Below, one piece after another: positions 8,347 to 21,425 of a stretch of DNA of 64,000 bases. Position 1 is the stretch's first letter. Each line of letters opens with the position of its first letter. This DNA is from Bacteroidia bacterium (lineage in GTDB: Bacteria; Bacteroidota; Bacteroidia; SpSt-205), in the NCBI GenBank assembly GCA_026003215.1, contig BPGV01000001.1, positions 461,570 to 525,569 of the forward strand, in the 5' to 3' direction. A program made the position numbers and the translations under genes. The notes below the pieces were generated by a model that did no database searches, was not told the DNA's origin, and saw only the letters and a program-made list of their open reading frames with translations.

Positions 8347-8844
8347 CTATTTCTTTTTGTAGATAGGCACACTTGAGCAGGCTTCCCCGTAAAAGACCAA
8401 GTGCGCTATGGGCATCACCCGCCGAAAAAACTCCGTCAGTACCGACGGCGACACCGTAGCACACCCTTTTAGGAGGATTTTCTTATCGCGGAAGGGCGTA
8501 AGGTCCAGCTCGGCCAGCTTCATAAGCTGGTACTGCTCAGGCAGCTTTTCGGGTGGACATACCGCGTAATACACCACATGCGGCGCCAAATACATGCCTA
8601 CCAATAGATAAGCCCAGGGCGGCACAATCGCCTCTGTACTCACATGGATGGCTACAGCTTGGCCAGCGTACTGGTTCCAGTCATGGGCCTTGAGGGCGGA
8701 ACGAAAAGGCTTTTCTCGCAGGAGAAGGCCCTCCTCCATGAACTGGGCCAAATCTACCTGCCCAAGGGGAGGAAGGGGCAGAAGCTTTTCTAAGTCAACG
8801 GTGAGCAGCCCCGCCGCTTCTACTCGGTTGAGGGGGGCTTCCAT
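8347..8844 (-). CDS. DUF2480 family protein
   Basis: A 165-residue cytoplasmic protein matching the Bacteroidota-specific DUF2480 family along its length: the N-terminal NRVEAAGLLTVDLE, the central REKPFRSALKAHDWNQYAGQAVAI and PPWAYLLVGMYL, and the C-terminal KGC followed by FYGEACSSVPIYKKK. The conserved cysteines near the C-terminus (KGC and EACSSVP) suggest a metal or redox role, but the function is unknown. The start ATG at 8844 is set by the family N-terminus. That ATG shares its A with the last base of the tRNA-His CCA end, so there is no room for a separate promoter or ribosome-binding site. The gene must be read from the tRNA transcript, and the prohibitin gene follows 3 bases later. 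Confidence 0.85.
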   Translation of the reverse strand: MEAPLNRVEAAGLLTVDLEKLLPLPPLGQVDLAQFMEEGLLLREKPFRSALKAHDWNQYAGQAVAIHVSTEAIVPPWAYLLVGMYLAPHVVYYAVCPPEKLPEQYQLMKLAELDLTPFRDKKILLKGCATVSPSVLTEFFRRVMPIAHLVFYGEACSSVPIYKKK

Positions 8845-8920
8845 GGGGCGGGTAGTCGGATTCGAACCGACGACCTTCTGAGCCACAGTCAGACGCTCTA
8901 ACCAACTGAGCTATACCCGC
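8844..8920 (-). tRNA. tRNA-His (anticodon GTG), CCA encoded
   Basis: Complete cloverleaf on the - strand. The 7-bp acceptor GCGGGTA/TACCCGC is followed by a D-arm (GCTCAGTTGGTTAGAGC), an anticodon stem TCTGA/TCAGA with loop CTGTGGC (anticodon GTG, histidine) and a T-arm with GGTTCGAATCC. The base before the acceptor (8921) is G and the discriminator is C, the extra G-1:C73 pair that marks tRNA-His. A genomic CCA follows the discriminator at 8846-8844, and its A is also the A of the next gene's ATG. A TACCTTTG box lies 8-9 bases upstream. Confidence 0.96.
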
Positions 8921-8929
8921 CGTGCCGTA

Positions 8930-8937
8930 CAAAGGTA
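8930..8937 (-). promoter_or_regulatory. -7 box TACCTTTG for tRNA-His operon
   Basis: Exact TAnnTTTG match on the - strand, 8 bases before the G-1 of tRNA-His. Transcription would start close to the mature tRNA 5' end and continue into DUF2480 and the prohibitin gene. Confidence 0.65.
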
Positions 8938-8949
8938 CAAAGTTTTTTC

Positions 8950-9570
8950 TCAAGGGAGGCCCGCAGCCAGAGAAGGATCCCAGAGCCCCTCCGGCGCCTC
9001 TATCACCAAAGTGGGGGGCACCGTGCCCCGCTCTAACCGCACCACAAAAGGCGCTGGAATCCAAAACTCCTCCCCTTTTTCATTCCGCACCACAAAGAAG
9101 TCATACGCGGCCCCCGGCTGGATAAAGGCCAGAATCCCCCGCCTCTGCCCGTTTGCATCCACGACTTGGGCCCCTTCAGCCTCTACATAGTAAAACTGCC
9201 CTTCGGGCAAGGGCGGAAGGTAGGCCTTGGGCAAATACAAACCGGCCTGCCGCAAAGCCTCTGCGTCAGAACGACTTCTATACCCCGCGAAGCGCAAGAG
9301 ATACCGCCGACGGCCGGGCTCTTTCTCGTCTTTGGGCGTGAGGTAGGGGCGGCACACTTCTACCCGCAAAGGCCGAGCTTCTGGCTCATAGGTAAAAGCC
9401 ACCCAAAATACCGACCAATCGTACGCCTCTGGCTGCGTAGAAAAGACATCCCCTATCACATACCCCCGAAGGCCCTGGGGACGGGCTACCCGCCCCCACA
9501 AAAAAAGCGCCGAAACCGGTAAGGGTTCTATGAGGAGCGGGCGAGTTTGGCTTCCTTCTGGGCTTTCCAC
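8950..9570 (-). CDS. rimM: Ribosome maturation factor RimM
   Basis: A 206-residue protein of the 30S assembly factor RimM, which binds ribosomal protein S19 and helps mature the 16S rRNA head domain. The N-terminal RimM barrel starts at LFLWGRVARPQGLRGYVIGDVFS (the usual GxxxxxxGLxGxV pattern), and the C-terminal PRC-barrel contains FYYVEAEGAQVVD and WIPAPFVV with a final LVIEAPEGLWD. The gene overlaps the end of rpsP by 43 bases, and the first 20 residues before the barrel are encoded inside rpsP. No in-frame ATG closer to the barrel is visible, so 9570 is retained. The rpsP-rimM neighbourhood is standard in bacteria. Confidence 0.9.
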   Translation of the reverse strand: MESPEGSQTRPLLIEPLPVSALFLWGRVARPQGLRGYVIGDVFSTQPEAYDWSVFWVAFTYEPEARPLRVEVCRPYLTPKDEKEPGRRRYLLRFAGYRSRSDAEALRQAGLYLPKAYLPPLPEGQFYYVEAEGAQVVDANGQRRGILAFIQPGAAYDFFVVRNEKGEEFWIPAPFVVRLERGTVPPTLVIEAPEGLWDPSLAAGLP

Positions 9571-21417: not shown

Positions 21418-21425
21418 TATGTTTG
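21418..21425 (+). promoter_or_regulatory. -7 box TATGTTTG for the + strand TPR operon
   Basis: Exact match, 4 bases before ATG 21430. It overlaps an upstream in-frame GTG, which is therefore not the start. Confidence 0.67.

Follow-up and report, generated by a model that had tools for sequence, protein, structure and literature searches.

The only tRNA-His gene of an uncultured Bacteroidia bacterium (Bacteroidota, SpSt-205; GenBank assembly GCA_026003215.1, here G000) runs directly into the start codon of the gene behind it, which encodes a DUF2480 family protein. The pair lies in a stretch of 64,000 nucleotides (nt) on contig BPGV01000001.1 (positions 461,570 to 525,569), referred to below as the window and numbered from its first base. 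This junction is one case of a genome-wide layout, in which about a quarter of the tRNA genes abut a protein-coding gene with 1–5 bases between the two. We consider, with reasonable confidence, that the layout is best explained by tRNA punctuation, whereby RNase Z-type processing would release near-leaderless mRNAs and the tRNA would act as a removable 5′ leader of the next gene.

The tRNA-His/DUF2480 junction and its conservation

On the minus strand, the junction reads ...TACCCGC-C73-CCA-TGG (Table 1). The tRNA-His(GTG) gene, placed by ARAGORN at 8844–8920 with G-1 at 8921 by reading, is the sole tRNA-His among the 44 tRNAs of the 2.27-Mb genome, and its body ends at C73 according to Rfam RF00005 (8847; G000:470416). 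An earlier note on this DNA had claimed that the CCA end of the tRNA (8846–8844) shares its A with the DUF2480 start codon; the sequence, ARAGORN and RF00005 agree that the A at 8844 is both A76 and the first base of the ATG (8844–8842). The PF10652 match to the open reading frame (ORF) from this ATG is full length (residues 5–164 on profile positions 4–165), and because it runs from residue 5 on profile position 4, the start fits the family. The note's further claim, that the only promoter lies before the tRNA, also held: TACCTTTG (8937–8930) is the sole TAnnTTTG in the interval from the upstream gene to the DUF2480 ATG, and the tRNA itself has no TAnnTTTG and at most two of six consensus bases at the place where an independent promoter would be needed. 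Predicted RNA folding gave no useful signal at the junction (z = 0.14).

The tRNA-His/DUF2480 pairing exceeds chance, with tRNA-His directly 5′ of DUF2480 in eight of the nine same-genus genomes that have DUF2480 (G000 included). A TAnnTTTG motif precedes tRNA-His at all eight of these loci; in the ninth genome, G002, no tRNA lies ahead of DUF2480. Past C73, the bases read CCATGG in this genome and G009, CTATGG in G003, G006 and G010, CTGTGG in G008, and CATGG in G004 and G011. The exact one-base CCA/ATG overlap, whose conservation in relatives had been proposed as a check, is kept only in G009 besides this genome, whereas the abutment persists in the six pair-bearing genomes that have no CCA here, with base 75 changed or one base fewer. 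The note's refuting condition, a loss of the overlap among close relatives, is borne out in part: the overlap goes, the abutment stays. In G004 and G011, the DUF2480 ATG lies one base nearer tRNA-His. An ORF extended back into the tRNA would be read there in another frame than in this genome, which excludes a protein start within the tRNA. This frame shift ruled out a start at the internal GTG (8886) and, together with the PF10652 register, fixes the true start at the junction, as the note had assumed. That abutment is kept while base 75 and the frame through the tRNA change supports punctuation.

Outside the genus, no TAnnTTTG-tRNA-DUF2480 arrangement was found among 30 DUF2480 loci belonging to other families in this class, and ARAGORN detected no tRNA at the approximately 20 of these with a motif-located start. 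Two distant Bacteroidota (loci L013 and L060) have a promoter-like element 4–5 nt before the DUF2480 ATG (TACTTTTG-CGAGC-ATG and TATCTTTG-CACC-ATG, respectively), such that DUF2480 may be leaderless there too, without a tRNA. Of the genes flanking the pair, the SPFH gene lies 3′ of DUF2480 in four genomes (this one and at loci L005, L006 and L007), and the upstream gene had no match at any other DUF2480 locus compared.

Table 1. Features at the tRNA-His/DUF2480 junction, in window coordinates
Feature	Position	Strand	Basis
TACCTTTG, Bacteroidota −7 promoter element upstream of tRNA-His; predicted +1 at 8925	8930..8937	-	Sole TAnnTTTG in interval; G at −5 in F. johnsoniae (PMC6847099); equivalent in 8/8 genus loci with the pair
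tRNA-His(GTG) body, G-1 to discriminator C73; single copy	8847..8921	-	ARAGORN, RF00005
C74-C75-A76, apparent encoded CCA; C74 alone conserved across tRNAs and relatives	8844..8846	-	Comparison of tRNAs and relatives
DUF2480 gene, 165 amino acids, ATG 8844–8842	8347..8844	-	PF10652, 157 bits (gathering cut-off 25)
SPFH/Band 7 (prohibitin-like) gene, start 3 nt past the DUF2480 stop codon	7711..8343	-	PF01145, 104 bits
Upstream gene, RimM-like	8950-9570		Inspection by eye

tRNA genes abutting protein genes across the genome

Protein genes of varied function begin hard against tRNA genes elsewhere in the genome (Table 2), often with GTG or TTG as the start codon. Several of the predicted proteins align with their Pfam profiles in register at the N-terminus (dxr residue 4 on profile position 1, FBPase 3 on 2, and trigger factor 15 on 15). 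The core set leaves aside the Asp-LigA, Lys and Gly junctions, all with longer gaps, and Leu(TAA), whose small protein has no Pfam match. The same tRNA-gene pairs are present again in G004, G008 and G010, and several of them in G003 and G009. In a tally compiled by hand for the ten Pfam-supported genes, 49 of 50 junctions from eight same-genus genomes had offsets of +1 to +5, with a peak at +1 (23 at +1, 13 at +2, 8 at +3, 3 at +4, 2 at +5, and 1 at +14). The start of dxr is a TTG directly past C74 of tRNA-Val(CAC) in all four genomes checked (L033, at G000:C1:546385, and L149, L154 and L170), so that this predicted leaderless mRNA would have kept a non-AUG start codon.

Table 2. Protein genes directly behind tRNA genes (offset counted from base 73; +1, start codon begins at position 75)
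tRNA-gene pair	Start codon	Offset	Identification
Val(CAC)-dxr	TTG	+1	Pfam
Met/Ile(CAT)-OsmC	TTG	+1	Pfam
Leu(TAG)-trigger factor	TTG	+1	Pfam
Thr(CGT)-multihaem cytochrome	GTG	+1	Pfam
His-DUF2480	ATG	+2	Pfam
Trp-SecE	ATG	+2	Pfam
Arg(TCG)-L25	ATG	+2	Pfam
Ser(TGA)-FBPase	ATG	+3	Pfam
Phe-PhoD (PhoD-like phosphatase)	GTG	+3	Pfam
Gln-prs	GTG	+4	Pfam
Leu(TAA)-small protein	ATG	+4	No Pfam match; recurs in relatives
Asp-LigA	ATG	+7	By eye only

Such junctions also occur in a second genus of the family (G001) and in a more distant member of the same order (G012), including Trp-SecE and Arg(TCT)-PurK. Two further cases from these genomes may be mentioned. In G012, tRNA-His (L180, C227:654-726) is followed 4 nt on by the gene of its own synthetase, histidyl-tRNA synthetase (GTG start, PF13393 at 1e-49), and in G001, an initiator-like tRNA-Met(CAT) (L177, C209:1638-1711) is followed 3 nt on by a 338-codon ATPase-like gene. 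Among 60 tRNAs of three outgroup Bacteroidia (G143, G122 and G297), no credible junction was found at +5 or less; a 61-codon TTG frame behind a tRNA in G297, repeated in apparent rRNA-operon copies, was regarded as spurious. The difference from this genome (11/44 versus 0/60) gives P = 3e-5 by Fisher's exact test, a value to be taken as a guide only, as tRNAs are not fully independent units. A layout widespread across Bacteroidia was accordingly rejected, given these outgroup tRNAs and the 30 DUF2480 loci above.

Only 3 of the 44 tRNAs encode a full CCA. Position 74 is C in 43 of them, in 150 of 159 tRNAs of five relatives, and in all 90 from G001, G012, G143, G122 and G297, and positions 75 and 76 vary throughout. 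Exactly one base of the CCA thus seems to be templated, which suggests a conserved role of C74 in 3′ processing; the CCA as a conserved functional element was ruled out, and its presence at tRNA-His looks accidental. These counts bear on the central proposal of the earlier note, in which the mature 3′ end falls exactly after the encoded CCA and takes the A of the AUG, such that each precursor would serve as either tRNA-His or DUF2480 mRNA. The CCA is present here and in G009, and RNase Z from B. subtilis and from archaea cuts CCA-containing precursors just after the CCA in vitro (PMC7479834). As a general rule, however, destruction of the AUG does not fit the genome: 41 of 44 tRNAs lack an encoded CCA, a CCA-adding enzyme is present, the same junction occurs without CCA in six of eight relatives, and cleavage behind base 73 or 74 spares the start codon at roughly ten further tRNAs, so that most junctions could not work in this way. 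Moreover, CCAUG also precedes secE, a gene expected to be essential, both here and in G008, and +2 junctions show no bias against a C at position 75. An either/or switch is therefore quite improbable overall, and its scope would be confined to tRNA-His and tRNA-Trp, the two tRNAs with a CCAUG junction in this species, where cleavage after the CCA could produce it.

Promoters, predicted leaderless messages and 3′ processing

Promoter spacing suggests that messages with little or no leader are common in this lineage. The window has 32 TAnnTTTG elements that are followed by an ORF; the start codon comes 3–6 nt after the motif in 20 of these, and at exactly 4 nt in 10 (e.g., at 21418, 11302, 13028 and 7501). 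The spacing-4 peak recurs in other stretches of this genome and in relatives, and is absent from G143 and the class sample. As the G of this element lies at −5 in Flavobacterium johnsoniae (PMC6847099), transcription from elements spaced by 4 nt would begin with the start codon itself (+1). In this genus, mRNAs from ordinary promoters hence appear to be exactly leaderless, unlike those of flavobacteria, for which 87% of leaders exceed 10 nt in F. johnsoniae (PMC6847099) and leaderless transcripts make up only 5.5% of mapped mRNAs in F. psychrophilum (PMC9723704). Given the sharpness of the peak, translation of leaderless mRNA appears to be routine in the lineage. The offsets behind tRNAs, which peak at the first position past C74 and then fall, resemble those behind promoters, and both promoter spacing and the tRNA boundary predict mRNAs whose start codon has at most a few nt before it.

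None of the twelve tRNAs with an abutting gene contains a TAnnTTTG/−7 element by sequence motif. A promoter inside the tRNA was also rejected on position, since the required interval (−12 to −5 relative to the start codon) matches at most two of six consensus bases in all twelve. TAnnTTTG occurs just upstream of the tRNA in 9 of the 12, and the remaining 3 come behind another tRNA. With no −7 element inside the tRNAs, these units most likely start before the tRNA.

The genome encodes a full-length RNase Z homologue that carries HLHADH (the HxHxDH motif) and has B. subtilis RNase Z as its best relative in the PDB (1Y44, E = 3e-44). RNase Z normally cuts after base 73 (PMC7479834), and tRNA precursors of P. 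acnes and S. coelicolor are cut between C74 and C75 (PMC3848588, PMC4681348). At 49 of the 50 same-genus junctions, the start codon would be preceded by 0–4 nt if the RNA is cut after base 74, and by 1–5 nt if it is cut after base 73. Cleavage after C74 would account both for the templating of this base and for position 75 being where start codons most often begin; the templated base favors this site without proving it.

We infer the following course of co-transcription, cutting and translation. RNA polymerase would start a few bases before tRNA-His and read through DUF2480 and the SPFH gene, RNase P would make the 5′ end of the tRNA, RNase Z-type cleavage past base 73 or 74 would free it, and the CCA-adding enzyme would complete its CCA. 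Since release of the tRNA is obligatory, the cut at its 3′ side would at the same time generate an mRNA 5′ end. The other product would be a DUF2480 mRNA that starts 0–2 nt before an intact AUG (1 or 2 nt in this species) and would be translated as a leaderless or near-leaderless message, and the same layout would be used at about a dozen tRNA genes of the lineage. The in-built coupling of the downstream gene to tRNA maturation, put forward in the earlier note, thus survives, probably with its sign reversed, in that maturation would make the message. Maturation by exonucleases would have the opposite effect: trimming from a distal cut would destroy the mRNA and leave the downstream gene expressed only from unprocessed transcripts. 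Such trimming is a known bacterial route for tRNAs that encode CCA (described in PMC4681348 and cited in PMC7479834), but most tRNAs here lack CCA and belong to the class handled by RNase Z, and several likely essential genes (secE, dxr and prs) lie behind tRNAs. We consider this route very unlikely.

The main rival to punctuation is compaction alone, in which tRNAs are followed as tightly as other genes are, and ribosomes enter an uncut or partly cut transcript internally, so that the cut does not create the start. Several points weigh against punctuation, the support for which comes from sequence. The short gaps could reflect general compaction: coding sequences of the window are equally tightly spaced, with many gaps of −4 to +10, and tandem tRNAs here lie 1–10 nt apart. 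Many of the junctions carry UUG or GUG starts, which in some bacteria work poorly on leaderless mRNAs. With 284 bits, the RNase Z homologue falls slightly short of the TIGR02651 cut-off of 293, and CC or CCA past base 73 inhibits the RNase Z of some bacteria (PMC7479834). In addition, the in vitro cleavage just after CCA noted above would, at CCAUGG, cost the His and Trp junctions of this species the A of the AUG. Nonetheless, junctions between coding sequences can rely on translational coupling, whereas a gene that follows an untranslated tRNA cannot, and the folded tRNA 1–4 nt ahead of it would be expected to block the 30S subunit. The 1–5 nt offsets also hold across species despite varying sequence and exact offset, and the outgroups lack the tRNA layout. 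On balance, compaction alone is an unlikely explanation, and we retain tRNA punctuation.

Relation to known systems and implications

Animal mitochondria provide the closest parallel, their transcripts reportedly being punctuated by tRNAs (Ojala et al., 1981). In both cases, protein genes repeatedly begin right at tRNAs, the mRNA 5′ end would arise when the tRNA is cut out, and little or no leader would be left. Unlike in mitochondria, each unit here has its own promoter, the layout concerns only about one tRNA in four, most genes belong to other promoters or operons, the organism is a free-living bacterium, and cleavage is predicted only. A bacterial tRNA-mRNA operon is exemplified by thrU-tyrU-glyT-thrT-tufB of E. 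coli, in which one promoter likewise serves tRNA and protein gene. There, however, a leader and ribosome binding site follow the tRNA, whereas here the start codon abuts it and the layout is genome-wide.

Leaderless mRNAs are described from Mycobacterium and P. acnes and in a review (PMC4633059, PMC3848588 and PMC9031893, respectively). As predicted here, such mRNAs open with the start codon or carry only a few nt before it, and in actinobacteria the start may be GUG; the 5′ end there is made by transcription initiation, whereas at the tRNA junctions it would be made by RNA processing. The C74|C75 cut of P. acnes and S. coelicolor would explain both the templated C74 and the commonest start position, although the portions of those reports that were consulted do not tie it to mRNA formation. 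P. acnes lacks an obvious RNase Z, a homologue of which is present here. Our search of the open-access literature, which left most subscription journals outside, found only mitochondrial, plant and archaeal cases of tRNA punctuation. The parts are hence known (mitochondrial punctuation, tRNA-mRNA operons and leaderless mRNAs), and their combination in bacteria is, provisionally, undescribed.

For genome annotation, the results mean that start codons hard against tRNA genes, often GTG or TTG, are real. The fuller picture, to which we give about an even chance, is of a free-living bacterial lineage with mitochondrial-style punctuation, in which a cut after the templated C74 would produce leaderless or nearly leaderless, 5′-monophosphorylated mRNAs for the housekeeping genes secE, L25, dxr, trigger factor, FBPase and prs, with their output tied to tRNA maturation. 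If confirmed, this would be the first clear bacterial counterpart of mitochondrial tRNA punctuation, as far as we found, and would offer a natural test of how leaderless mRNAs with a 5′ monophosphate are translated. Punctuation would have arisen where leaderless translation seems to be the norm, showing a possible route to it from ordinary operons, and tRNA maturation would be coupled to the synthesis of translation and secretion proteins.
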